NCBI GenBank assembly: GCA_020852965.1
Contig: JADYZV010000151.1
Coordinates: 1 to 64,000, forward strand
Reading direction: 5' to 3'
DNA: 64,000 nucleotides
Origin: Pirellulaceae bacterium
GTDB taxonomy: Bacteria; Planctomycetota; Planctomycetia; Pirellulales; Pirellulaceae
Position 1 is the stretch's first letter. Each line of letters begins with the position of its first letter. The translations under genes were made by a program, and so were the position numbers. Below the pieces are notes generated by a model, which had not been told where the DNA came from, made no database searches, and saw only the letters and a list, made by a program, of their open reading frames with translations. Positions 10,775 through 33,750 of this stretch are shown here, in pieces.

Positions 10775-14736
<3,962 letters not shown>

Positions 14737-16421: not shown

Positions 16422-17921
16422 TTAGTAGCCGCTGCCTTGTTCCCAGAACATGGAGACTTCGCCCACGGCCGATGGCCCCAAGATGACACCGCCCTGGACC
16501 GGCAGGCAGTTGCCGGGCCGCCCCTGCCCGAGCGTATAAACGCGTTCACGCGGGTGATGGGTCAGCGTCTTGTACGGCATAAGCGGAATGCTCCAGAAGA
16601 AGTGTGCCGACGAAAGCAGCGGCTGCACCGCGCGGGCTCGACCGACCCCGTAGCGTTCCAGGTTCGGCTGTTCAAAGTACAGCGGATAGTGATAAAACGC
16701 TGGGCTGATCCAAGTGTAGGGGGTTGGCATCCAGCCGAATTGGCTGGCATCTGCGCGTGGACCCACGGCTGCTGGTGCACCAAAGGTTCGTAGGTCTTCG
16801 GCTAAATCCAAGCGATTAAACAGTTGTTCGGCACCTTTCAAGGGCCCGATCATCGAATCGGTATTCAATAACGGGGTTTCGTCGGGTATCAACTTCTTGA
16901 TCGGTTGAATAGGTATGCCTCTCGCGTTGGACGCGTGATTCCGCTCGGTAGGCTGGTTCGTCGTGTCCGCGACGTTGTTAGTTTTGTCCGTGAAGCGGCT
17001 TATCGCAGGTGGCTCGGATCTTGGAGCTTCTGGTGTGTCAACGACGGGATCGCTAGCAGCCGGCGGTTGCTCGCGTGAGGATCGCTGCTGCACCATAGCC
17101 ACTCGTGACGGCTGAACTTTAGTCGGAATCTCTAGCTTGTCAGCGGGGACGGGAAGCACCAACGATGATTCTGCGTTGCCACTTCCAAGCGGCCTCGCAG
17201 ATGACGCGAGTCGCGCTTGCAGGGGCTGTCGATCCTGTTGCTCCTGTTGCTCCAATCGCTCAGACTGGCTGGGACGCTGCAACGGTCGCGCCCCAGGCGC
17301 ATGTTCCGAAAACGGCCAGTTCGCCGCTGGCGTATCGGTGGCCATGGTGCTATCGTTCCATGGAATGGTAGTTGGCGAGGGCGCATCGCTATCGCTGGTC
17401 GCCACTTTGACTTGAGCTTGCAAATGTGGCGCGACTTGGGGTGTCATCGGGCTCACCTGTGCGCCTCGCATTCCGCCTGCGCCCCGCGTTCCGCCTGCGT
17501 CCCGCGCCTGCCCATCCGCTGAGTCGAGCTCGGCAAAAGAAAAACGCTTGGAAGCGGGCGATGCCCATGGTATGCCCTGCGGTTGTGGCGAGGTTGGATC
17601 GCCAGCACCACTGGCCGTGACAATAGCAGCATGGTCATTCCCCATAGCGATTGCCAATCGCATCCCCGGTTTGCTGAACAAGTCGCCATAGCGCTGCGCG
17701 AGGGACGGTGTATTCGATTGGTTTGCCGCTGGCTGCGACGGCTGCGAAGTTAACGGCAGGGCTTCGGGCCACCTTCTTCGGCTGGCGTCGGTCGCTCCTG
17801 CTGCGGAGCTCGAATTCGAGACTTGCGGAGTGAACCATAGGGGTTGTTGCGCTAACGCGGTGGTGTCGCCACCGGCAGCGATGGATAAACTGACCAGGCC
17901 AGCAATAAGGTAGGCTCGCAT
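16422..17921 (-). CDS. Secreted proline/serine-rich orphan with conserved-looking C-terminus
   Basis: 499 aa, family not recognised. A signal peptide covers about residues 1-24. The middle (about 30-370) is low-complexity, rich in Pro, Ser, Gln and Ala, including short GG(T/M)RGA repeats around residue 145. The last roughly 110 residues are different: aromatic-rich and apparently globular (WMPTPYTWISPAFYHYPLYF, then HFFWSIPLMPY, ending in GEVSMFWEQGSGY). Such a layout suggests a disordered spacer holding a C-terminal envelope or surface domain. It lies 95 bp downstream of the TolC-like gene on the same strand, so it may be co-expressed with it. ATG 17921 has GGGGA 10 nt upstream. Confidence 0.72.
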   Translation of the reverse strand: MRAYLIAGLVSLSIAAGGDTTALAQQPLWFTPQVSNSSSAAGATDASRRRWPEALPLTSQPSQPAANQSNTPSLAQRYGDLFSKPGMRLAIAMGNDHAAIVTASGAGDPTSPQPQGIPWASPASKRFSFAELDSADGQARDAGGTRGAGGMRGAQVSPMTPQVAPHLQAQVKVATSDSDAPSPTTIPWNDSTMATDTPAANWPFSEHAPGARPLQRPSQSERLEQQEQQDRQPLQARLASSARPLGSGNAESSLVLPVPADKLEIPTKVQPSRVAMVQQRSSREQPPAASDPVVDTPEAPRSEPPAISRFTDKTNNVADTTNQPTERNHASNARGIPIQPIKKLIPDETPLLNTDSMIGPLKGAEQLFNRLDLAEDLRTFGAPAAVGPRADASQFGWMPTPYTWISPAFYHYPLYFEQPNLERYGVGRARAVQPLLSSAHFFWSIPLMPYKTLTHHPRERVYTLGQGRPGNCLPVQGGVILGPSAVGEVSMFWEQGSGY

Positions 17922-18016
17922 TGTGTCCGGTTCCCCTGACTATTCGATAACGCGTTCTCAAAGTATTTCTTCGGGTCGATTGTCGCTCGCTTGTGCAGGC
18001 GACCCCACCCATCACA

Positions 18017-19942
18017 TTAGCTCTTCGAACTTGGCGCGCCGATGACGATGTCGCGCGTCGCGGGCTGTGCATCGAAGTCGAGCAGATCACGCCGTTCGGC
18101 TGCATCCACGTAGGCTTTACTCGGTGCCATCGCTTCGACCAGGCTGACATTGCAGTATTCCAGCAAGGTCCCCTTTTCAAAGTTGACATTGCGCAGCGCC
18201 AGCGCATACTCGACCTCGGCTTGGTGGTATCGCAGTCGAGCATCGAGCAAGCGGCGGTGAGTTTCCAAACGCACGTCGAGTTCCGCCTTTTCCCCTTGAT
18301 CGCCTTTGGCGTCGATCGCATTGAGCTGAACGACGATGGCATCGAGTCGTTTGCGTTGCAACAGCATGTTTTCATATGCGCGTTTGCCTTCGTTGATGGC
18401 GTTGCTCAACGAATAGTGGATGAAGCGTTCCTGCTCTTTGAGCAATTGCACTTCTCTCGCTAGACTCAACCGCGAATTCTGCACGGCCGCGTGCGCGCGC
18501 CGAAAGCCGATAGGTAAATTGTATTCGAGTCCCAATTGCCACTCTTGGAATTGCCCGTCGTACAAGCTGGCGCTGGCTGAATTGGAACCTAAGAAGTCTT
18601 CGCCGAAACCACGAAAGCGATAGCGGCTGATGACATCCAGTTGCGGTTTGAGAAAATTGCGGTTGGCCACCAATTCGAGCTCACGCTGCTTGACAATCCA
18701 CTTCTGCTTGCGGATTTCTGCACGACAACGCAGCGCTTCATTGACGCTGCTCGACCAGTCGTAGACCACGGGAGCCGAGAATGGTGAATCGGTCGGTTTG
18801 ATAAGTCTACCATCGTTGATAGGCATACCGACCATCAGCCGCAAGCGGCGTTCGGCAATTCGCACGCCGCCGTTGCTGCGAAACGTACCTGCCGAGCTGC
18901 CGTTGTTCGTACGTGTAGCGTCGATCGGTCGACCATTGAGCGAATCGACTATCTCCGCTTGGAAACGATAGACCTGCTCTTCGGCTTGGGCGATCTTGCC
19001 GCGCGAAGTGGCATTCTCGTCTTGTAGGTTGAGCGTCTCTTGCGCAATGTCGCGCACGTCGATACGCGCCTCGAGGTCGCGATAGGAGTAGTACAAATCC
19101 CAATAGGTGTTTTCAACTTCGGCCAGCAAATCACGCACGCCACGCTCGAATTCAATCAGGGTGACATCGCTGCGCACGCGAGCGAGCAGGACACCATTGA
19201 GCTGGCCTGGTGTGGCGCCAGGACCGGCTATGCGATTGAACTGTGTACCGGCGCCTTGCAGGAGAGGCTGTCGTGCTTCAGCTTCTACGTAGGTATCCCA
19301 TGAATCGAAGGGAAAACGATTGGACAGTTGATTGTTTCGGTCGTAGGCAGTGACATTGCGAAAAGTATAAAAGCCACCCGTGGCAGATCGCTTGCTAATC
19401 CCAGTCTGCGTCGTGTTCAGGTCTTGCTTGAATAGTCCATTGCGACCGAAGAACTGGTTGTTCAAACCGCGATCATTGCGTTCGAAGTAGTTGTTTGCGA
19501 AGAAGTTGGCATCGAAGGCGCTCAACGCGGCTTCTTCACCCAAGCGTGGATCGCTGAACATCAGCCCCGGATCGAGCATGGTGACTACGGATTGTGGTGA
19601 ACGCACGACGGTCCCCCCCAAGTCGCGCATGATCTTCGAGTTCGATAGCGCCAATTGGATGCACTCTTGCAGAGTCATTGGCAGCACATTCTCACTCGAC
19701 AGTGTCCGCTCGTTCAAATCGAGCGGTGAGGCTTGTTCGGCCACCGTCGGCCCGATGCACGGCACCGAACAGACCTCGGAAAACTGCAGTTGTGCAGGTC
19801 CGGGAGTCGGCTGCGTTACCAGCTTCATGCATGAGTTGTCTTTGCAAAAGTCGAACCGGTCGCCATTGAGCGCACAGCCACTTGCTAGCAACAACCCGAG
19901 CAGCCACAGTTTGCCTGCCGCAGTTCGTGGTCGATGATGCAT
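18017..19942 (-). CDS. TolC-family outer membrane efflux lipoprotein
   Basis: 641 aa. The signal peptide ends in a lipobox (LLLASGC, Cys at about residue 23), so the protein is likely lipid-anchored. The body is long alpha-helical coiled coil with two related halves, as in TolC/OEP proteins: LQECIQLALSNSKIMRDL (about 90-107) is the typical entry of the first repeat, and LVRGVRDLLAEVENTYWDLYY-type helices follow. It should form the outer-membrane channel of a tripartite exporter. The start at 19942 is set by AGGAGG on the minus strand about 8 nt upstream; a start at 19981 would lose the signal peptide position. It is divergent from the adaptor/M50 operon at 20273, its likely partner. Confidence 0.88.
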   Translation of the reverse strand: MHHRPRTAAGKLWLLGLLLASGCALNGDRFDFCKDNSCMKLVTQPTPGPAQLQFSEVCSVPCIGPTVAEQASPLDLNERTLSSENVLPMTLQECIQLALSNSKIMRDLGGTVVRSPQSVVTMLDPGLMFSDPRLGEEAALSAFDANFFANNYFERNDRGLNNQFFGRNGLFKQDLNTTQTGISKRSATGGFYTFRNVTAYDRNNQLSNRFPFDSWDTYVEAEARQPLLQGAGTQFNRIAGPGATPGQLNGVLLARVRSDVTLIEFERGVRDLLAEVENTYWDLYYSYRDLEARIDVRDIAQETLNLQDENATSRGKIAQAEEQVYRFQAEIVDSLNGRPIDATRTNNGSSAGTFRSNGGVRIAERRLRLMVGMPINDGRLIKPTDSPFSAPVVYDWSSSVNEALRCRAEIRKQKWIVKQRELELVANRNFLKPQLDVISRYRFRGFGEDFLGSNSASASLYDGQFQEWQLGLEYNLPIGFRRAHAAVQNSRLSLAREVQLLKEQERFIHYSLSNAINEGKRAYENMLLQRKRLDAIVVQLNAIDAKGDQGEKAELDVRLETHRRLLDARLRYHQAEVEYALALRNVNFEKGTLLEYCNVSLVEAMAPSKAYVDAAERRDLLDFDAQPATRDIVIGAPSSKS

Positions 19943-20272
19943 GCCTACCCCTCCTGAAATTCGCGTTTGGACGAACTCCACTATCGTCGGTTGATATAAT
20001 CAGACAGTCAACAATTCGGATGTATCGGTCCTAACAATTCAACAAATCATGCTGCATAGAACAATTGTGCGTCGATTTCCGACGAAGAGTGCGATTTGGA
20101 AAACTAGGCAGACACGTCGAGCGCAGAGTTTCACGGAATCTTCAAGCTGCGAGTACAATAGGACTCAAGTTTTGATTCTTTTCGAACTCGGGTGAATTCG
20201 GGGCAAAGGGGGCACGGGGCCTGTCTTTCCCCCCGTCTCCACTATCCAACCCAACGCTGACGGACGCCGCAT
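19943..20272. other. Divergent promoter region of the exporter locus
   Basis: 330 bp between the TolC-like gene and the GAF-HlyD gene. On the minus strand TTGACT (20011-20006) is followed after 17 nt by a weak GACGAT, a possible promoter for the TolC-like gene. No small precursor-peptide gene with a convincing ribosome site was found here. Confidence 0.4.
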
Positions 20273-22345
20273 TTGTTCACTGCATCGACCGACAATCTCG
20301 ATCAACTGCTTGACCAGTTCGAGGTGCTGGCACGCTCCGACATGCCCACGGGGCAGTTCTTGGCTGATGTGGTCGAGCGTCTGCGTCTTACCATGGCAGC
20401 TCAATCAGCGCGGATAATGCTGTTCGCAGACTCCGATCAGTGTTTGCCGTTGGCTAGCAGTGGCCAATCGCCGCAGGCAGTGCAGATCGAACAAGAGATC
20501 GCCAACCACCTGCGTTCGGTCGGCGCGCGAGAGCGCCCGTGGCTGACCGGCGCCTGGGGCGAAGTGACCTGGATCGCCGTACCGCTACGCCCCGGCGATT
20601 TCTCCAAAGGCTACTTGCTAGTCACCATCGATTCGATTGTCCCAGAACACACCCTAGACGGTTTGATTGAATTGCAAGCCGCCTTTGCGGAAGTCATCCT
20701 CATCCGCCAGCAGGAAGAGCTGGAAGCATTCCTCGGTAGAAGCTGGGACCAAGTTCCAGACCTGTGTCTGCAAATCGCGTCGGCCCCTAGTCAAGATAAT
20801 TCGGCCACGTTGTTGGTGGGAGGCTTGGCCCGCATCTTGGACGCGGCCCGGGTGTCCCTTCTGTGCGGCAGAGCATTGGCACCGCCGAGCGTGCAAGCCG
20901 TCAGTGGTGTCCCCAAAGTCAGCCCGTCTGCCAGCGTCGTCCAGGCCTTACAAGCGATCGGCAGTAAGTTGCAAGGTTCGGGCAAGCCGCTATTGCGGCA
21001 ACAGCCTAGCGGGCGATCTGCTGCCGGCCCAGCGCAACCAGAACTCTCCGAAGACGGGTGCTTTTCAAATCTGCTCGGCTTGCGCTTGGCAGCCGACGCG
21101 ACAACCGGTGTCGTGGCCGACTCGTCGAGATCGACACGGGCCGCCCAACTACCTCCGACGTGGTTGGTGATCGAGTACGAAAGTCACGCCAAGTTGATAC
21201 ACAGCGCAGCACTCTTGCCCCACGTGCTGCCGACGATAGCCGTTGCCTGGGAGCAACAATCGCGATGGCTACGAATCCCCAAGCTGGCTCGTATGTTCGC
21301 GTCAGGTCCCGCTTCGGCGCTGCGCGCGAGCCTGCGACTGCTCAAATGGCCCGTTCTCATCGGGTTGCTCGGCTTGGCCGTATGGGCGGCGCGGCAACCC
21401 TACCCGCTGGTGATCGAAGCCGAAGGTGCTTACGAACCGGCTACGTCGCGCGCGATATACGCCGCTGACGACGGCTTTGTGGAAGAATTGCTGGTCGAGG
21501 ATGGAGAGTCGGTCCAGGCGCGCCAGCCGCTTGTGCAACTGCGCTCGCCAACCTTGGAGCTGCGAATCGAACAAGTCACCGGAGAGCTGCGTGGCGTCGC
21601 CGAAGAGAGTAGTGGTATCCACATCGCCATCAATCAACTCGATCCCGATTCGCCCGACTTATTGAACAATCAAAGTCGTCTGGCAGGCAAAATTGCCGAA
21701 CTCAAAACCAAACAAACCAGTCTGGAACAGCAGCTTGAATTGCTTCAAACCCAGCGCGCGGGTCTGCTGCTACGCGCTCCCATTGATGGAACGATTGTGG
21801 CCAAGGATCTTCAACGCCACTTAGCGGGTCGTCCCGTGCGCCGCGGCGAGCCGCTTTTCTCGATTGTCGATCAAGCTGGACCATGGCAAGTGCGCGTGCA
21901 GGTGGTCGACCGCGATGCCGGCTATCTTCGCACCCACTACGTCGCGCCGACTCCGACGTTCTCTAAACGAGCGACCGAAAGACAGCACAATGCAGAGTCG
22001 CAACTAGTCGGAGAGACGAAGCCAGACAACGAGCCAAGTGGCCAGCGATCCATCGTCAGTGATCTCGATTCGGCCATTACTTTTGGGTTGGACAGTCGTC
22101 CTGTAGAGCGCTGGCCTGCGCAGCTTAGTTGGATATCCGATCATGTCGAAAACATTCAGGGACAGGGCTGTTTTGTCGAAGTTCGTGCACACGTTGAGTC
22201 TCCCGAGCAGATCGGGGCGCATGCTGGCGCTGGAGTCCATGCTTACTTTACTTGCGGCTCGCAGCCGTTGTGGTTCGTGTGGTCCCGACCGCTGGTCGAA
22301 GCCATCCAGCGCAAATTTTGGTTCAGGAGTCGATCCGATGAGTAA
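20273..22345 (+). CDS. GAF-like domain protein fused to an HlyD-type membrane adaptor
   Basis: 690 aa. The N-terminal half (about 1-340) reads as two GAF-like sensor domains, inferred from pattern only: a helix, then strands such as ARIMLFADSDQCLPLASSG and ITWIAVPLRPGDFSKGYLLVTI. A single membrane helix follows (about 364-384). The C-terminal half (about 390-690) is HlyD-like: a split biotinyl-lipoyl domain (DDGFVEELLVEDGESVQARQ and LLLRAPIDGTIVAKDL) around a coiled-coil pair. The protein could sense a cytoplasmic signal and gate export. The TTG start at 20273 is poorly supported; the next ATG is 23 codons in. Its stop overlaps the next gene's start (ATGAGTAA). Confidence 0.78.
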   Translation: MFTASTDNLDQLLDQFEVLARSDMPTGQFLADVVERLRLTMAAQSARIMLFADSDQCLPLASSGQSPQAVQIEQEIANHLRSVGARERPWLTGAWGEVTWIAVPLRPGDFSKGYLLVTIDSIVPEHTLDGLIELQAAFAEVILIRQQEELEAFLGRSWDQVPDLCLQIASAPSQDNSATLLVGGLARILDAARVSLLCGRALAPPSVQAVSGVPKVSPSASVVQALQAIGSKLQGSGKPLLRQQPSGRSAAGPAQPELSEDGCFSNLLGLRLAADATTGVVADSSRSTRAAQLPPTWLVIEYESHAKLIHSAALLPHVLPTIAVAWEQQSRWLRIPKLARMFASGPASALRASLRLLKWPVLIGLLGLAVWAARQPYPLVIEAEGAYEPATSRAIYAADDGFVEELLVEDGESVQARQPLVQLRSPTLELRIEQVTGELRGVAEESSGIHIAINQLDPDSPDLLNNQSRLAGKIAELKTKQTSLEQQLELLQTQRAGLLLRAPIDGTIVAKDLQRHLAGRPVRRGEPLFSIVDQAGPWQVRVQVVDRDAGYLRTHYVAPTPTFSKRATERQHNAESQLVGETKPDNEPSGQRSIVSDLDSAITFGLDSRPVERWPAQLSWISDHVENIQGQGCFVEVRAHVESPEQIGAHAGAGVHAYFTCGSQPLWFVWSRPLVEAIQRKFWFRSRSDE

Positions 22346-23489
22346 ACGAACGGTCCAGAATCCGCCTCTCGAAGCAGGCGTTCACCCGCGGCATGCTCCC
22401 CACGACCTGCGGCAGCGCCCCTCATCCACGTACCCCCAGCATATTCTGCTGTTGTGCGCCTGCGTCGGCTTCTGGTCTTCGAACGCGCTATCTCCGCTTC
22501 AAGCCCAAACGAGCGACACAATCACAGAACCTATTGAGCAGCAGGAGGCAGCACCATTAGATTCCATAGAGCAGCCAAACATGAATGCGGCACCAGCCAT
22601 CGAACTCGAGGGAGCCATTCTAAAAACGATCGACGCAACCAGCCTGGCGGCCCAAGTGGCTGGGCCACTTCGGGAACTGCTAGTCAAAGAGGGAGACATC
22701 GTAAAGGCAAACCAAGCTTTGGGGAGAATCAACGACGATGCTCTGCGGCTCGAACTGGAACAATTGAAAACGCAAATTGCCGTAGCACAGAAAAAACAAG
22801 CCAACGACATCGACGAGCGCTTAGCCGAGAAAAGCTTACAGGTTGCCCACAACGAATATGAACGCGCCATGAACGCCAATGCACGCGTCCCAGGTACCTA
22901 TCCCATCAACGAAATCGATCGCCTCAAGTTATTGGCTGATCGTTCTCAATTGGAAGTCGAACGCGCAAAATACGAGCAGGAACTGGCTGCCTTCGAAGTC
23001 ACTCTTGCCCAAGGAAGCTATCGCCAAACCTACGAACGCTTTTTGCGGCATCAGCTTACCGCTCCTGCTGCGGGTGTCGTGGTCTCCGTCGAAAAGCGCG
23101 CTGGCGAGTGGGTCGAACCGGGGACCGACCTGCTGCGCATCGTGCGCATCGATCAATTGCGAGTCGAAGGATTCATCTCCTCGGAAGAGGCATCTCCGCA
23201 ACTGGTCGGTCGCTCGGCCCGTATCGCTATGGTGGATAAGCACGCCAGCAAGATAGCGGATAGTCAAAGTTGGCAGGGCAGAGTCGTCTTCGTCAGCCCC
23301 GATGTCAATCCGGTCAATTCGCAGGTGCGCGTGTTCATCGAGGTCGATAATCCCCATGGGGTGTTGCGCCCCGGCCTTCGCGTCCAAGCTCAAATTGAAG
23401 GGCCCGTTGACGGCTCCGCTGAAGATAGCGTTGCACATCGCAACCCACCAAACACAGAGTATCACGAGCCGCAAGTCGTCGAAAAATGA
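22338..23489 (+). CDS. HlyD-family periplasmic adaptor
   Basis: 383 aa membrane-fusion protein. After a signal or anchor helix (about 29-50) comes the adaptor fold: first lipoyl half (LVKEGDIVKANQALGRI, about 115-131), a long alpha-hairpin with coiled-coil character, the second half (LTAPAAGVVVSVEKRAGEWV) and a beta-barrel with VLRPGLRVQAQIEG. It should bridge the inner-membrane components to the TolC-like channel. The ATG at 22338 has AGGAG 8 nt upstream and overlaps the end of the preceding gene by 8 nt, so the two are translationally coupled; a longer reading with start 22143 would overlap that gene by 200 nt and is rejected. Confidence 0.87.
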   Translation: MSKRTVQNPPLEAGVHPRHAPHDLRQRPSSTYPQHILLLCACVGFWSSNALSPLQAQTSDTITEPIEQQEAAPLDSIEQPNMNAAPAIELEGAILKTIDATSLAAQVAGPLRELLVKEGDIVKANQALGRINDDALRLELEQLKTQIAVAQKKQANDIDERLAEKSLQVAHNEYERAMNANARVPGTYPINEIDRLKLLADRSQLEVERAKYEQELAAFEVTLAQGSYRQTYERFLRHQLTAPAAGVVVSVEKRAGEWVEPGTDLLRIVRIDQLRVEGFISSEEASPQLVGRSARIAMVDKHASKIADSQSWQGRVVFVSPDVNPVNSQVRVFIEVDNPHGVLRPGLRVQAQIEGPVDGSAEDSVAHRNPPNTEYHEPQVVEK

Positions 23490-25684
23490 GTTCAGCCAGC
23501 GCTCGCGAATTTAGCCCTCGGCTTCGTGCCGATTTGGAGTGGAGTCACCACGGCGATCAAGCGCGCTGGATCGCTCACGATCCTGTCGCCATGCAGTTCT
23601 TCAGCTTCAGTGAACTCGAACGTAGCGCTACTCGTTTGATGATGGGCCGGCTAAGCTTCAGCGAAATCGTCGCGCAATTGCGGCAGAGTTATCCTGCCTT
23701 GGCGATCGATGCGACTTGGGTGTCTAGCCTCCTGTCGCGTCTGCAAATGCACCACCTGCTACAGCCTCGCACGCGCGCAGATACGCTGCGCATCGCTCAA
23801 GCTCAGGCGCGAAGACAGATGCCGGGGTGGGTCCAGCAACTGCTCAGTCCGATTGCCATCCGTGTTCCGCTGTTCAATCCCACTCCCCTACTGAATGTGC
23901 TCAGTCCGCTGGCGCATGTGTTATTTCAGCCGCTACTGTTGCTCGCTTGGTTGGTGGTCGGCTGTGTACTCGGGCTGTGCGTTCTGCGTGAGGTGTTGAC
24001 CACCGGGCTGGCCGCTTCGATCAACTGGAGCATACTGCGTGGCGACGGCTGGTGGTTGTTGTTGGTGAGTTATTTGGTGGCTAAGTCATTGCACGAATTG
24101 GGACATGGGCTGGCTTGCGTACGCTATCGTGTGCAGTGCCGCGAACTGGGCATTCTGTTTCTCTGCTTGGCTCCCTGTTTGTATTGCGACACCAGCGATT
24201 CCTGGAAGCTACCGTCGAAATGGCAGCGTGCTACGATTGCAGGTGCCGGTATGATTGTCGAATGGATTTTGGCAACCATGGCAGCGGGAGTTTGGCTGAT
24301 AACACAGGACGGTAGCCTGCATAGCGTGGCAGCCAGTATGATGGTCGTCTGCTCGGTCGGGACGCTGCTCGTCAATTCGAATCCGTTTTTGAAATACGAT
24401 GGCTACTATTTGCTGTCCGACCTGTGGGGTGTCCCGAATTTATCCGAACAGGGGAGCGATGCGCTGCGCGCGTTGGCAGCTAGCGCGCTCTCAGGTCGAC
24501 CACTCGAACGTTGGCACACGGATGCTCCCATTGCGTTGTTGGCGACATACGCTTTGGTCGCAACTGTTTATCGCACCTTCATACTCGGGGCCATCCTGTG
24601 GATTAGCTGGAAGGTGCTGGTGCCGCTCGGGCTGGGCCTGATAGCGGTACTATTAACTGCCAGCTTGCTTTTCGGTTTGCTGCTCGGATATGCAAGATCC
24701 ATGCGACGATTGTGGCGTGAGGTGTTGCTCGCCGAATCGATTCGCGTCGGGCGCTGGATCGTGTTCTTTACCCTATGCCTGCTTGCCGCCGCGCTCGTTT
24801 TCACCGTACCGCTGCCCCATGTGGTTCGTGTGCGCGGAGTCAGCGACTATCAAGACAAGCAACCCTTGTTCGTCAACCAGACTGCTGAGTTGATCTATGC
24901 CGCCCCAGTCAATCGCCGCTTGCCGGCTGGAGAGTTGCTGCTTGAGTTCGCTGCGCCTGAGAGCCAGTACGAACTGCTCGAATTGCGTGGGCAGATCGCC
25001 ACGCTAGAGCAAACATTGCAACAGCTTCGCTTGCGTAGCACGCTCGATCCCAGCAGCGCCTATTTGATACCCACCAAGACGGAGGAACTGCAACAATTAC
25101 ACGCTCGCGAGCGTGTGTTGCTGCGGGAGATCGCGTCGCTCACCCACACCGCACCGCACGACGGGTATTTGCTTGCCGGTACGCACGTCGTACGCCCTTC
25201 GCTGACCGCGCCGCGCGATGCGCGCTTTCGCCATAATCCACTCGACCCCAACCTAATCGGAAGCACCTGCGATCGCGGTACGCTGGTCGGCTGGTTCTCT
25301 CGTCGGGAGCATAGGATTCTGACGCTGATCGTTCCCGAGCAGGAGATCAAGCGGCTCGTCGTGGGCATGACTGCCACGATTGGCTGGGACGCTAACATCG
25401 CACACCTGGGGCGGGGGAAGGTTGTTCGCATTGCTCCTGAGCCGATCCTCGAGACGCCACCTGAACTCGTAGGCGATGCGACCTTGCTCTCCGAACGCAA
25501 CGCACAAGGGGTTTTCTTGCCCAGCAAGCCTCACTATGAAGTGACTGTCGACGTCGAGCTCAATTCATCGGACTTGCTGCCGCTGCGCGGGAGTCTAGCC
25601 ACGGCGCAGTTTGCACTCCCCGCACAAACGATTTGGCAACGCCTGGTCGAGGCCGTTCGCAACAACCTCAAACCGCTGTCGTAG
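23486..25684 (+). CDS. PqqD-like / M50 metalloprotease / HlyD-like membrane fusion
   Basis: 732 aa. Residues about 28-92 resemble PqqD-type peptide-binding winged helices (FFSFSELERSATRLMMGRLS then a terminal helix). The membrane core (about 145-460, roughly eight helices) is an M50 site-2-protease-like domain: zinc motif HELGH at 203-207 and NPFLKYDG at 299-306, giving the Asp ligand. A periplasmic C-terminal part (about 470-732) carries a coiled coil and an HlyD-type barrel (RLVVGMTATIGWD). Such fusions occur in peptide export or maturation loci, so a peptide substrate is plausible, but none is visible here. ATGA overlap with the preceding gene. No ABC ATPase accompanies it. Confidence 0.84.
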   Translation: MSSASAREFSPRLRADLEWSHHGDQARWIAHDPVAMQFFSFSELERSATRLMMGRLSFSEIVAQLRQSYPALAIDATWVSSLLSRLQMHHLLQPRTRADTLRIAQAQARRQMPGWVQQLLSPIAIRVPLFNPTPLLNVLSPLAHVLFQPLLLLAWLVVGCVLGLCVLREVLTTGLAASINWSILRGDGWWLLLVSYLVAKSLHELGHGLACVRYRVQCRELGILFLCLAPCLYCDTSDSWKLPSKWQRATIAGAGMIVEWILATMAAGVWLITQDGSLHSVAASMMVVCSVGTLLVNSNPFLKYDGYYLLSDLWGVPNLSEQGSDALRALAASALSGRPLERWHTDAPIALLATYALVATVYRTFILGAILWISWKVLVPLGLGLIAVLLTASLLFGLLLGYARSMRRLWREVLLAESIRVGRWIVFFTLCLLAAALVFTVPLPHVVRVRGVSDYQDKQPLFVNQTAELIYAAPVNRRLPAGELLLEFAAPESQYELLELRGQIATLEQTLQQLRLRSTLDPSSAYLIPTKTEELQQLHARERVLLREIASLTHTAPHDGYLLAGTHVVRPSLTAPRDARFRHNPLDPNLIGSTCDRGTLVGWFSRREHRILTLIVPEQEIKRLVVGMTATIGWDANIAHLGRGKVVRIAPEPILETPPELVGDATLLSERNAQGVFLPSKPHYEVTVDVELNSSDLLPLRGSLATAQFALPAQTIWQRLVEAVRNNLKPLS

Positions 25685-25890
25685 ATAGCAAAACGGATTT
25701 GTGCCTTTAGGCGATTTTGGACGGTACGGTGGTTCGGCTAAAGCCTAGCTTGTGGCGCTTAAGTAAAGCCTGTTGCGCAAGCTCGCATGGGGCCCAAAAA
25801 AGATACAAAAAAACGGCACGCTGCGGAGCGTGCCGTTTGATTAAAGCATTCGTAAGTGTCGAGCTCAGGGCTCGGTCACGTTAGCGAGGC
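25685..25890. other. Convergent intergenic region with groEL terminator
   Basis: 206 bp between the M50-fusion gene (plus) and groEL (minus). It contains the strong hairpin described separately, which can serve both strands. Confidence 0.5.
25803..25838 (-). terminator. Rho-independent terminator of groEL
   Basis: A perfect 12-bp stem, AAACGGCACGCT (25811-25822) with loop GCGG and its exact reverse complement at 25827-25838. On the minus strand it is followed by a T-rich tract (the A-run at 25795-25813 read in reverse). It lies about 50 nt beyond the groEL stop codon. Confidence 0.88.
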
Positions 25891-27540
<1,650 letters not shown>

Positions 27541-29304: not shown

Positions 29305-29801
29305 GTGGTTGCTGCTTAACATCCGAGTTTTCTGAAATGGGAGAGCGCCAGCGGTGGGTCAATCTCACGCCGACCAACCTCCGCGCATCAGGCGAGTGCC
29401 TTGATACCCTAGATATCGCGGCGCGGCGGACACCTTGGGTCACTCCTGGTCGCATGCCGGAAATTTTTTGTTTTTTTCCACGAGCAGCACCCGCCGACAC
29501 CTGCGACTCCGCCTATGTCATCGATTTGGGCGGAACTTGGTGGAAGTTGGCGGGTTTAGACAAGCTTGAGGCCGGATTGCGTATTGACGGGTCGGACGTA
29601 TCGAGAGTTATCGAATGCCATCGCGCAGACGAACGCCTTGGGCTGAACTAGAATGAAGGGGAGGACATGCCTCACACCTCCCCACCTCCCGGCAAATCCC
29701 CTCGAATCCCTCCCCCCACTCGGAGTGTTCTGTTGATCGGCCAGATCGATCGATGCCTCCTGCGACAAGAAATCTGTTGGTCAACAGCTAGGAAATCATT
29801 G
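29305..29801. other. 497-bp divergent region, mostly non-coding
   Basis: It separates the small orphan (minus) from the MacA-like gene (plus). A 117-codon open frame at 29298-29651 exists but has no ribosome site or family pattern and is not called. A pyrimidine-rich tract (about 29680-29720) is the only visible feature. Confidence 0.5.
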
Positions 29802-31637
29802 ATGCCATCACCCAATTCTGCACACCCAATTGCTCGCCACCGCAGCTCAGGTCGGATTCTCTTCATTGTCCTTGGCCTGCTTGCGGTACTCGCCGGCGGA
29901 GCCTATGCGACCTACCAGTACGGCGGCTTTGCAGGCGGTCCGTTAGTGGACGAGGTCATTACGGAAGCGGCCATTCGCGGCCCGTTCGACCATATTGTGA
30001 TTGAGCAGGGGGAAATCGAAAGCAGCAGCAATGTCGACGTGATTTGTCAAGTCAAATCGCAGGGATCAGGGAGTAGCGGAACGCCGATACTGTGGGTCAT
30101 CGACGAGGGGACTTATGTCAAAGCGGGGGACAAGCTGGTTGAGCTTGACGCCTCGGCGTTGGAAAACCAACTTAAAACCCAACGAATTGCTGTCTCCGGG
30201 GCGGAAGCCATGGTGATCAGCTCCGATGCGGCAGTCCGCACGGCGGAGATCGCGCTCCAAGAATACCTCGAAGGCACATTTATGTCTGAGCGCAAGGCGA
30301 TCTTGAGCGAGATCGATGTGGCCCAGCAGGAATTGCTCACCGCCGAGCTCAAACTGGCCAGCGCTGAACGCATGGCGGCCAAAGGAATGTTCAACAAGCG
30401 GCAGGTCCAAGCCGAGGGCTTTGCCGTCTCCAACGCCAAAAACGTGCTCGAATCAGCCCAAAGCCGCTTGGGGATCCTCGAACGCTTGACCAAAGAGAAA
30501 TTCAAGGTTCAGTTTGAAAGCGATATCGAAGCGGCCAAAGCCAAGCTCAAAGCGGACGCGAGTGTGCTGGCCGAAGAGGAAGATAAGCTGCGCGAACTGC
30601 AAGATCAGATCACCAAGTGTATCATGTTGTCCCCCGTCGAAGGGGTCGTGGTACACAACAATCAATTCAGCAGTCGTGGTGGCAGCGCCGAGTTCGTGGT
30701 GGAAGAAGGGGCTATGGTTCGCGAACGCCAAACGATTATCAAGCTTCCCGATCCCACCAAAATGCAGGTCAAGGCCTCGATCAACGAACAAAACATCACC
30801 CTCATCGCCGAGGGGATGGCGGCCAAGATCAAGGTCAACGCGGTCGATGGGGATATGTTGGCGCGCATCAAACGGGTCAATAAATACCCTGAGCCTGGCA
30901 GTTGGTTCAGCTCGTCGGTTAAGAAATACACGACCTACGTCGAAATCCTCTCTCCGGCCGCCGCGATCCGCACCGGTATGACCGCTGAAGTGCGCATCTT
31001 TGTGCGGCAAATCCCGGATGCTCTACAGATTCCCGTCCACGGCATCTACGAATACAAGGGGCATCACTTTACCCTCGTCAAAAGAGGGACCGGCTGGGAA
31101 ACGGTGGCGATCAAGATTGGTGCCACCAATGACAAAATGGTCACCATCGAAGAGGGCTTGTCCGAAGGGGATTTGGTGGCGCTCAATCCACGGCAACATC
31201 TCGATCTTCTCGAACTTCCCGACGTAGACGAGGTCTCGGATCGAGATAAATTGGCCGAAATTGGTGCCGATGCTGGAAAGCCCGTAGTGCCACCCGCCGC
31301 CGATGGCCAAGAAGTTGCCGGACAAGGCGGTCGTAGTCCCGCAGGCGGCCCAGGCGGAGGTCGCGGTGCGGGCGGCGGCGGCGGTAGCGGTGGTGGCCCT
31401 GGCGGGGGGCCAGGTGCTGGAGGCTTTAATCCACAGATGATCGTCGATCGTATTTTCCAAGCCGACACCGACGGCGACGGCAAGCTGTCGGGGGACGAAA
31501 TCAACGGACTCGACGAGCGGATGCGAGATCGCGTCGGCGAATACGACACCAACTCCGACGGTGTGCTTGAAAAGGACGAAGTGCTCAAGGCGTTCCAGAA
31601 GCGCGCGCAGCAGCGCGAGGCAGGAGGAGGGTCCTAA
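29802..31637 (+). CDS. MacA-type efflux adaptor with C-terminal EF-hands
   Basis: 611 aa. A membrane anchor (about 18-38) is followed by an HlyD/MacA adaptor: lipoyl halves (IDEGTYVKAGDKLVELD and MLSPVEGVVVHNN), a long coiled-coil hairpin (about 130-260) and barrel domains ending in a GLSEGDLVALNP block. After about residue 480 comes a Pro/Gly-rich linker, then two EF-hand loops (DTDGDGKLSGDE near 554-566 and YDTNSDGVLEKDE near 582-593), which should bind calcium. EF-hands on an adaptor are unusual. AGGA sits 8 nt before ATG 29802. The last base of its stop codon is the first base of the next gene's ATG (TAATG). Confidence 0.86.
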   Translation: MPSPNSAHPIARHRSSGRILFIVLGLLAVLAGGAYATYQYGGFAGGPLVDEVITEAAIRGPFDHIVIEQGEIESSSNVDVICQVKSQGSGSSGTPILWVIDEGTYVKAGDKLVELDASALENQLKTQRIAVSGAEAMVISSDAAVRTAEIALQEYLEGTFMSERKAILSEIDVAQQELLTAELKLASAERMAAKGMFNKRQVQAEGFAVSNAKNVLESAQSRLGILERLTKEKFKVQFESDIEAAKAKLKADASVLAEEEDKLRELQDQITKCIMLSPVEGVVVHNNQFSSRGGSAEFVVEEGAMVRERQTIIKLPDPTKMQVKASINEQNITLIAEGMAAKIKVNAVDGDMLARIKRVNKYPEPGSWFSSSVKKYTTYVEILSPAAAIRTGMTAEVRIFVRQIPDALQIPVHGIYEYKGHHFTLVKRGTGWETVAIKIGATNDKMVTIEEGLSEGDLVALNPRQHLDLLELPDVDEVSDRDKLAEIGADAGKPVVPPAADGQEVAGQGGRSPAGGPGGGRGAGGGGGSGGGPGGGPGAGGFNPQMIVDRIFQADTDGDGKLSGDEINGLDERMRDRVGEYDTNSDGVLEKDEVLKAFQKRAQQREAGGGS

Positions 31638-32419
31638 TGCACGCCTGTTCCATCCGCGACTTGAAAAAGGAGTATGTGCTCAAGAGCGAAACGGTGCGCG
31701 CTCTGCGCGGCGTTTCGTTCGATGTCCCTGAGGGAGACTACGTGGCGATCATGGGGCCCTCGGGCTCGGGCAAGAGCACGCTGCTCAACTTGCTCGGTTG
31801 CCTCGACCAGCCTTCCGGCGGTGAACTGCTGTTGGGCAAAGACAACGTGGCCACGATGACCGACGATCAACTGGCCGAAATCCGCTCTCGCCGCATCGGT
31901 TTCGTCTTTCAATCGTACAATTTGATCCAACAACTGACCGTGGTCGAGAATATTCAGGTCCCTCTCTATTACCAGGGCAAGCTGGGGGCCAAGGAGCGCA
32001 AGCGTTGCGTCGATCTGGCTGCGCGAGTCGGATTGCAAGATCGACTGTCTCACCGCCCCACGCAGCTTTCCGGAGGGCAACAACAACGGGTGGCCATCGC
32101 TCGTAGTCTCGTCAATGATCCCTACTTTATTCTCGCTGACGAGGCGACGGGCAATCTCGATTCGAAGACCACGGCCGAGATCCTGTCACTGTTCAACGAG
32201 CTCAACGCCGAGGGGCGTACCATTATCATGGTTACTCACGAAGATGAAGTCGCCGAACGCGCCAAGCGAATCATTCGCTTGCGGGACGGACTATTGCAAT
32301 CGGATCGCCTCAACTCTCCCGAGAGCCGCCAGGCGGCCGCCGAACGCGCCCTAGCCCTCATCCCCGATCCACAGGACGATGAAGAGCAAACACCCACCCC
32401 CATACCAGTCGAGGCTTAG
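31637..32419 (+). CDS. ABC transporter ATPase, MacB/LolD type
   Basis: 260 aa nucleotide-binding subunit. Walker A GPSGSGKST (about 39-47), Q-loop FVFQSYNL, signature LSGGQQQR (about 140-147), Walker B FILADEATGNLD and the H-loop VTHE are all present. The pattern of MacB/LolD-like ATPases suggests it drives substrate extraction or export with the permease at 32428. A C-terminal tail of about 35 residues is rich in Pro and acidic residues. Its start overlaps the adaptor stop (TAATG), and the permease follows 8 nt after its stop codon, so all three genes form one operon. Confidence 0.93.
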   Translation: MHACSIRDLKKEYVLKSETVRALRGVSFDVPEGDYVAIMGPSGSGKSTLLNLLGCLDQPSGGELLLGKDNVATMTDDQLAEIRSRRIGFVFQSYNLIQQLTVVENIQVPLYYQGKLGAKERKRCVDLAARVGLQDRLSHRPTQLSGGQQQRVAIARSLVNDPYFILADEATGNLDSKTTAEILSLFNELNAEGRTIIMVTHEDEVAERAKRIIRLRDGLLQSDRLNSPESRQAAAERALALIPDPQDDEEQTPTPIPVEA

Positions 32420-32427
32420 TCAATCCT

Positions 32428-33750
32428 ATGTTATGGTTGCGAACGCTTTCTCTGGGCGTCAAAAGTCTATTGCTTCACCCGCTTCGATCCTTGCTGACCG
32501 TGCTCGGGATTTTCATCGGCGTAGCCAGTGTGATTTGGCTGCTGGCGATTAGCGAAGGGATTAGCAACGAAGCCCAGCGCCAGATCGAAAGTTTGGGGGC
32601 GGACACCATCATGATCCGTTCTGTCGAACCGCCGTCGGACAAACTCAATGCGCAAGGGGTCACCCCCTACGGCTTGAAGCGGTCAGAATACGACATGTTG
32701 GTGAAAACCATACCCACGCTCAAAACCGCAGTTCCCATCCGCGAGATCAAACGCAAATTCACTCATAAAAATCGCACCGTCGAAGGACGCCTAGTCGGCT
32801 GTACCCCCGAATATGCCGAACTGACGCGTCTGTTCATCGATCGTGGACACTTCATTAGCGATGCGGAGAATTTTCGTCGCGATTCGGTCTGCGTGCTGTC
32901 GGCCGAAGTCGCCGCCTCGCTCTTTCCCTACGAAGATCCGATCGGTAAACGAGTCGATTTGCCCGATCACAAAGACTACTATCGCGTCATCGGCGTGCTC
33001 AAGCCGCGCAATGATTCGGCCGCAATCGGTGGCTCCATGGCGGCCCAAAGCTTCAAGAGCGATCTGTACATCCCGATTCAAACACTACAACTGCGTATCG
33101 GAGATACCGTAGTCAGGCGCGCGGGTGCGTCATTCAGTGGCGAAATGATTGAACTCAATCAGATCACGTTGGCGGTCAAAAGCATCCATGACGTCAAGGC
33201 TACCGCCGCCTTGGTCGAAGATGCCCTGCGCAGCCATGACAGCATGGAGGATATTTCGGTGGCCGTGCCGCTCGAACTGCTTGAACAGGCTCGCACCACA
33301 CGCTTGATGTTCATGGTCTTCATGGGCTTGGTGGCCGCTATTTCGCTGTTGGTCGGTGGCATCGGCATCATGAATATCATGCTAGCCACCGTCACCGAGC
33401 GAACTCGTGAAATCGGTATTCGCCGAGCGCTCGGAGCCAAACAAAAAGATATCGTCGCTCAATTCTTAGTCGAAGCGGCCGTACTGAGTGTGGTGGGGGG
33501 CATCACCGGCATTCTGGCTGGAGTATTCTGCAAGCCGGCGATCGTGATGACGCGTGAATTCGTCTCGCAAACCTATCCCGAGACCATGGCAGCTCTTCCC
33601 GACGTGGTCCGCAATGTGACCCCGGCTATTGTCCCCGAATCGATCCCTATTGCCTTCGGTATATCGCTGGTGGTAGGAGTGGTATTCGGTTTGTTTCCGG
33701 CCATCCGCGCCGCGCAGATGAATCCCATCGAAGCCTTGCGCCACGAATAG
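32428..33750 (+). CDS. MacB-like ABC transporter permease (FtsX family)
   Basis: 440 aa with four predicted membrane helices (about 20-42, 290-312, 340-365, 395-420) and one large periplasmic domain between the first and second, the MacB/FtsX topology. The blocks GGIGIMNIMLATVTERTREIGIRRALGAK, in the cytoplasmic loop, and AAQMNPIEALRHE at the C-terminus are diagnostic. It should form a homodimer with the ATPase and the EF-hand adaptor as a tripartite-type exporter or lipoprotein-type mechanotransmission pump. No TolC gene is adjacent. Two REP-like repeats follow the stop codon. Confidence 0.92.
   Translation: MLWLRTLSLGVKSLLLHPLRSLLTVLGIFIGVASVIWLLAISEGISNEAQRQIESLGADTIMIRSVEPPSDKLNAQGVTPYGLKRSEYDMLVKTIPTLKTAVPIREIKRKFTHKNRTVEGRLVGCTPEYAELTRLFIDRGHFISDAENFRRDSVCVLSAEVAASLFPYEDPIGKRVDLPDHKDYYRVIGVLKPRNDSAAIGGSMAAQSFKSDLYIPIQTLQLRIGDTVVRRAGASFSGEMIELNQITLAVKSIHDVKATAALVEDALRSHDSMEDISVAVPLELLEQARTTRLMFMVFMGLVAAISLLVGGIGIMNIMLATVTERTREIGIRRALGAKQKDIVAQFLVEAAVLSVVGGITGILAGVFCKPAIVMTREFVSQTYPETMAALPDVVRNVTPAIVPESIPIAFGISLVVGVVFGLFPAIRAAQMNPIEALRHE

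Follow-up and report, generated by a model that had tools for sequence, protein, structure and literature searches.

A divergent-TolC, SecA-less locus of HlyD adaptors and an M50-HlyD fusion in a Pirellulaceae genome, with large LExR-motif proteins as its likely cargo

How might an exporter work when no motor is encoded beside it, and what would it carry? This question is raised by a locus of four genes in a 64,000-nucleotide stretch of DNA from a Pirellulaceae bacterium (GCA_020852965.1, contig JADYZV010000151.1, positions 1 to 64,000; the whole stretch is hereafter the window). GAF-HlyD, HlyD and M50-HlyD proteins are encoded together here, beside a single divergent gene for a TolC-family channel (OEP). 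The gene positions given in a preliminary description, which had been made from the DNA letters alone, were confirmed, as were the exact overlaps of consecutive genes (ATGAGTAA at 22338-22345 and ATGA at 23486-23489). We give about an even chance to the reading that the locus is a planctomycete type-I-like secretion module of a SecA-less subtype, which would bind and clip a leader with the motif LExRxxLxA (hereafter LExR) and hand the protein on to TolC.

In Planctomycetes and other phyla, GAF-HlyD, HlyD and M50-HlyD genes surround secondary SecA_DEAD genes (Kamneva, Poudel and Ward 2015, PMC4452313). The accessible parts of that paper report a module in which an ABC transporter was not seen and an OEP gene is present sometimes. 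They propose the secondary SecA_DEAD protein as the ATPase in place of an ABC ATPase and the M50 protein as the membrane part, and call the wider role unknown; some of the secondary SecA genes, they note, lie apart from any such adaptor or M50 partners (PMC4452313). In the window locus, a motif check found Walker A in 0/4 proteins, no ABC transporter ATPase gene was found, and there is no SecA_DEAD match on the contig (C151), so that the lack of an ATPase gene in the locus, noticed from the start, holds.

To place this absence among relatives we used the loci of family genomes and 80 named loci, typed by profile. The 40 family loci (L020-L059) were not a random draw but were chosen by hand from the top matches of the window protein and of profile A1, and five named loci that duplicate family loci were dropped (L138, L161, L167, L172 and L196). 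Among the 115 unique relatives outside the source genome, 24 have a divergent OEP gene without SecA and 13 have SecA, while the two never occur together (0/115). Another 49, each with at least 6 kb of upstream sequence, lack both, and 29 are cut short. On a tree of 46 fusions, where part of the labels rest on cut loci, the window fusion joins the congeneric L020 (99/97). This pair groups with L022 and L024 (100/100), all four being divergent-OEP loci, although the branches of L022 and L024 are long and meet each other. The divergent-OEP label requires 6 changes on this tree, below all 500 shuffles, and is not a single clade. Since divergent-OEP, SecA-less loci recur both among relatives and on the tree, the missing local ATPase is a recurrent property of the subtype and not an accident of the source genome. 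The full subtype, together with a LExR open reading frame (ORF) downstream, is also present in L128, whose record bears the title Rhodopirellula baltica strain BR-MGV.

The inner-membrane core of the proposed exporter would be the 732-aa M50 fusion (Table 1). Its N-terminus was suspected to be PqqD-like, and both a profile search and the fold bear this out; it is assigned to the PqqD/RRE fold, for which leader binding is predicted. The site-2-protease motifs are intact, as first described, and read HELGH (residue 203) and NPFLKYDG (residue 299). Both HExxH and NPxxxxDG sit in the membrane-helix core, as is expected of an M50 site-2 protease, and H203, E204, H207 and D305 are invariant across 59 aligned fusions (alignment A5). 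Residues 13-413 match the NCBIfam daptide-protease model NF041824 at 148.2 bits, below its cut-off of 300, and the fusion resembles daptide and YydH/LiaK epipeptide proteases weakly. Three cysteines (C211, C218 and C234) do not vary among 21 aligned sequences; in the 59 aligned fusions C211 and C218 are still at least 90% conserved.

Structures were modelled for two of the four locus proteins, and domains were otherwise assigned by profiles. In each modelled protein the fold of the adaptor half matches that of MacA, and the Foldseek matches listed for them were adaptors only. GAF was not detected in the 690-aa protein by sequence searches; the tandem GAF was settled by fold, with the domains preceding the membrane helix as had been anticipated. 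The 383-aa HlyD adaptor passes NCBIfam TIGR01730 (105.2 bits, cut-off 94.9), and the locus has both this adaptor and the TolC-family channel.

Table 1. Coordinates of the features of the locus, as positions in the window
Feature	Position	Strand	Basis
TolC/OEP-family outer-membrane channel, 654 aa, divergently oriented	18017..19981	-	Pfam OEP 45.5 bits
Intergenic region, 291 bp, separating the divergent genes	19982..20272	.	coordinates
GAF-GAF-transmembrane-HlyD adaptor, 690 aa	20273..22345	+	tandem GAF fold ~1-345, hydrophobic helix 352-372, then adaptor half
HlyD/RND-MFP-type periplasmic adaptor, 383 aa	22338..23489	+	Pfam HlyD_D23 65.9 bits
PqqD-M50-HlyD fusion, 732 aa	23486..25684	+	RRE 9-95, membrane M50 core, MacA-like half ~442-721
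PqqD-like (RRE) winged-helix domain, fusion residues 1-95	23486..23770	+	profile and fold similarity

Large proteins with the LExR motif are likely cargo of the module, judging from their sequences and from a gene neighbourhood that in relatives is not random. As controls we took 20 random 20-kb regions at round coordinates from 10 genomes. LExRxxL was found near the N-terminus in 10/16 ORFs of at least 1000 residues in L020-L059, against 0/11 in the random regions. It lies in the first 120 residues of 16/220 non-module ORFs, and in the next three 120-residue segments of 1/268, 1/181 and 2/105 ORFs. Family module loci contained a LExR ORF in 15/40 cases vs 2/20 random regions (P 0.034, as a guide). 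Moreover, we counted loci with at least 3 kb of downstream sequence in which a LExR ORF lies within 7 kb downstream on the M50 strand. This was so for 8/20 divergent-OEP loci, with none on the opposite strand, compared with 1/9 SecA-type loci, 5/41 other full loci and 2/18 cut loci. The divergent-OEP proportion differs from that of SecA or other full loci (6/50, P 0.017) and from the same set including cut loci (8/68, P 0.008). In the named set, which was gathered once the motif was fixed, the corresponding counts are 4/9 for divergent-OEP loci and 2/47 for the others (P 0.004). Over all loci the LExR ORF lies on the M50 strand 16 times and on the opposite strand once.

The LExR N-termini have a net charge of +3 to +13 and mostly lack a hydrophobic segment, the exceptions by hydrophobic window being L049 (2.75), L027 (1.89, its start perhaps called too early) and L149 (1.55). 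Scans of four whole LExR ORFs returned a beta-helix, DUF5649 repeats, DUF5649 just below cut-off and, for the last, nothing. Across the phylum a LExR profile (A3, from which L046 is excluded as doubtful) matched at E<=0.005 in 16/43 genomes with the fusion vs 3/105 without it.

Several points weigh against LExR proteins as the cargo. The first 40 loci served to define the motif, the profile was trained on Pirellulaceae-type ORFs most of which adjoin the module, and all P values given here are guides, since related genomes are not independent. L046, one of the 15 module ORFs, looks doubtful, as does L068, one of the two from random regions. Outside the window's class the contrast drops to 5/27 vs 3/105 at E<=0.005 (P 0.009), and at E<=0.02 it is 10/27 vs 19/105 (P 0.065). 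At least three convincing LExR ORFs are present in G022, a 91% complete metagenome-assembled genome in which the fusion was not found at E<=1e-40 and which may miss the locus. LExR profile matches also occur in G099 and G152, which lack the fusion; G029 carries the fusion, yet a search as loose as E<=10 gave no LExR match in it. The window has no LExR ORF, and 12/20 divergent-OEP loci likewise show none nearby.

We therefore reject the idea that LExR proteins strictly depend on the module, on the grounds of G022, G099 and G152, G022 being a weak negative either way; a regex search of a sample of 20 of its contigs found LExR in 0/61 ORFs. Because LExR proteins exist without the module and the window shows none nearby, the link is not obligate, and cargo for the window locus would be encoded elsewhere, given that the window has no LExR ORF. 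DUF4347, which was seen in one SecA-type neighbour, was dropped as a mark of cargo: it is found in 30/60 family genomes vs 59/60 for the fusion.

From these parts we infer leader binding, cleavage, export and its direction, and gating. In the SecA-less exporter that we propose, the RRE domain of the fusion would bind the LExRxxLxA leader on large proteins and the site-2-protease site would clip it. The HlyD half of the fusion and the two other adaptors would then connect to the TolC-family channel, and the tandem GAF domains may gate assembly or activity. More tentatively, we suggest that this could be a distinct route for giant planctomycete surface proteins, in which the RRE domain reads LExRxxLxA, the protease clips, and the adaptor of the same polypeptide feeds a TolC-family channel, without a dedicated ATPase.

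Lastly, we considered what might drive such a machine. A linked ABC transporter that is merely missing here was rejected: relatives lack one too, with ABC-type ORFs at background in 1/40 family loci vs 1/20 random regions, and in 1/80 named loci (L176) and 1/20 phylum loci (L107). These counts come from a motif rule that can miss cases, since a terminal ABC-like ORF in L108 went unflagged. The ABC gene in the window (31637-32419) is part of a MacAB-like trio of HlyD-type adaptor, ABC ATPase and permease (29667-33750). This trio lies 4 kb from the locus, with genes resembling groES-groEL by eye between them, and its adaptor has a C-terminal EF-hand-like region below the Pfam cut-off.

The source genome has six M50-HlyD loci, two of them with a secondary SecA. 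Those on contigs C87 and C194 encode OEP, SecA, HlyD, GAF and M50; those on C70 and C9 encode GAF, HlyD and M50, with SecA not found in the stretch taken; that on C198 is interrupted by the contig end. SecA_DEAD matches are a canonical 1253-residue frame and three short secondary copies, of which those on C87 and C194 sit inside M50-HlyD loci and that on C99 is an orphan; one further match on C70 is below cut-off. Since three short secondary SecAs are present, two of them in paralogous loci, the energy source may act in trans. As the preliminary description said, the locus has no motor gene, although a SecA stand-in has been published (PMC4452313, in its accessible parts). Candidate drives are an unlinked secondary SecA, canonical Sec and the proton motive force; the exporter may also have no dedicated motor.

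It is possible, if on balance doubtful, that the same exporter is energised in trans by a secondary SecA such as the orphan at G000:C99, the linkage having been lost; LExR cargo is compatible with this. Of the family genomes, 59/60 have the fusion at E<=1e-40 together with two or more SecA_DEAD matches, and G022, where the fusion was not found, has one SecA. Among 148 genomes of the phylum, two or more SecA are found in 33/43 with the fusion vs 4/105 without (P 9e-20). Moreover, 6/9 SecA-linked loci fall in one tree clade, which includes the C70-bearing branch without a nearby SecA. On the other hand, SecA is in no divergent-OEP locus, and 10/43 fusion-bearing phylum genomes have a single SecA at E<=1e-30, including G077 (one contig, 99% complete), at a threshold that missed a divergent copy in G081. 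A looser search of those ten genomes and G022 gave a divergent SecA adjacent to the G081 fusion, a marginal 76-position match at cut-off in G165, and only sub-cut-off or zero further matches in the remaining genomes, G077 among them.

Three further loci deserve description. In G081 a highly divergent SecA-like protein directly follows the M50 fusion (L102, 12130-14106; 104.7 bits with the local profile, 82.8 bits with Pfam). In G077 the M50 fusion and a HlyD gene adjoin what by eye appears to be an RND pump operon (L100, 3639-12055), with GAF and OEP unmatched by local profiles. L101 (5666-13255), a distant locus, has M50, GAF, HlyD and an OEP-like-looking ORF, and no SecA match; its divergent ORF has a LEERIVLDAA stretch at the start and, by eye, an apparent DUF4347.

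The preliminary description saw a sensor-gated exporter that would bind, cut and pass on a peptide. That the locus is a small-peptide or small-molecule exporter, or a maturation system of the kind known for ribosomally synthesised and post-translationally modified peptides (RiPPs), we consider unlikely. The weak daptide and YydH/LiaK epipeptide protease matches would fit it, and HlyD and TolC parts are common to efflux pumps. However, the recurrent downstream neighbours encode large LExR-motif proteins and not a small precursor, a weak point in that short ORFs and modification enzymes were not systematically searched. Somewhat less probable still is a protease scaffold under sensor control that would release or hold back surface proteins, or perform regulated intramembrane proteolysis, without itself transporting anything: the tandem GAF fold, the intact site-2-protease motifs and the absent motor would suit it, but three HlyD-type adaptor halves and a conserved neighbouring TolC-family gene argue for a trans-envelope conduit.

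Elsewhere in the locus, the TolC-family gene probably starts at an in-frame ATG 13 codons in, judged on the reading frame. A pattern test on the translation found no match to the strict lipobox pattern; its ASGC fits only a looser pattern, which leaves lipoprotein status uncertain. The 291-bp intergenic region presumably holds both promoters. Promoter-like matches in 19900-25950 were at chance (1 vs 1.8 expected in shuffles), as were terminators in the locus scan, and tRNA and Rfam scans at gathering scores gave no match within the 64-kb window. The window also encodes, at 11209-14736, a 1175-aa fusion of an AMP-binding enzyme, a carrier domain and a class I/II aminotransferase (Pfam), which we take to be reminiscent of an acyl-loading alpha-oxoamine-synthase fusion.

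Planctomycetes encode very large LEPR-type proteins, whose export route is not stated in the accessible parts of the open-licence literature searched. If the locus exports such proteins, RiPP-style leader reading would be tied to whole-protein secretion, in a trans-envelope exporter that lacks a motor, borrows one or has one not yet recognised. The LEPR-XLL domain (NCBIfam NF012209), named in two papers of that literature, is passed by one candidate cargo (L010, 18.3 bits vs a cut-off of 17) and was unmatched in the other nine N-termini scanned, the LExR motif used here being a looser form. The L010 protein (17374-18999), which has a LEPR motif and DUF4347, begins next to the paralogous C194 locus that includes SecA. 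HlyD and TolC are not mentioned in the accessible parts of a review of polymorphic toxins (PMC3482391).

Among known systems, type I secretion (HlyB-HlyD-TolC) shares the HlyD adaptor and TolC-family parts with the window locus but has an ABC ATPase where the locus has an M50 membrane core. MacAB-TolC shares the MacA-like adaptor folds, but MacB is absent from the locus. Daptide clusters were discovered by way of a fusion between an RRE domain and a site-2 protease. The daptide precursors have a common N-terminal ELExMEAP motif, and the RRE-dependent peptidase MpaP is said to remove the leader (PMC10036551, in its accessible parts). MpaP has an N-terminal RRE fused to M50, as in the window fusion, and we see a possible likeness between the daptide ELExM motif and the LExR motif. 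However, the NF041824 model spans 379 positions without the HlyD half that the window fusion has, and MpaP, as far as that source goes, works in peptide clusters that also encode modification enzymes and ABC transporters, unlike the window locus. The closest system is the module of Kamneva et al., which has the same three protein types. That set was collected around SecA, whereas the window subtype lacks SecA, has its TolC-family gene in divergent orientation and is arranged as GAF, HlyD, M50; the RRE domain and LExR cargo are unmentioned in the accessible parts of the paper (PMC4452313). The module itself is thus published and functionally uncharacterised, and what is new, within the open-licence literature searched, is its SecA-less divergent-TolC variant and the proposed class of cargo.

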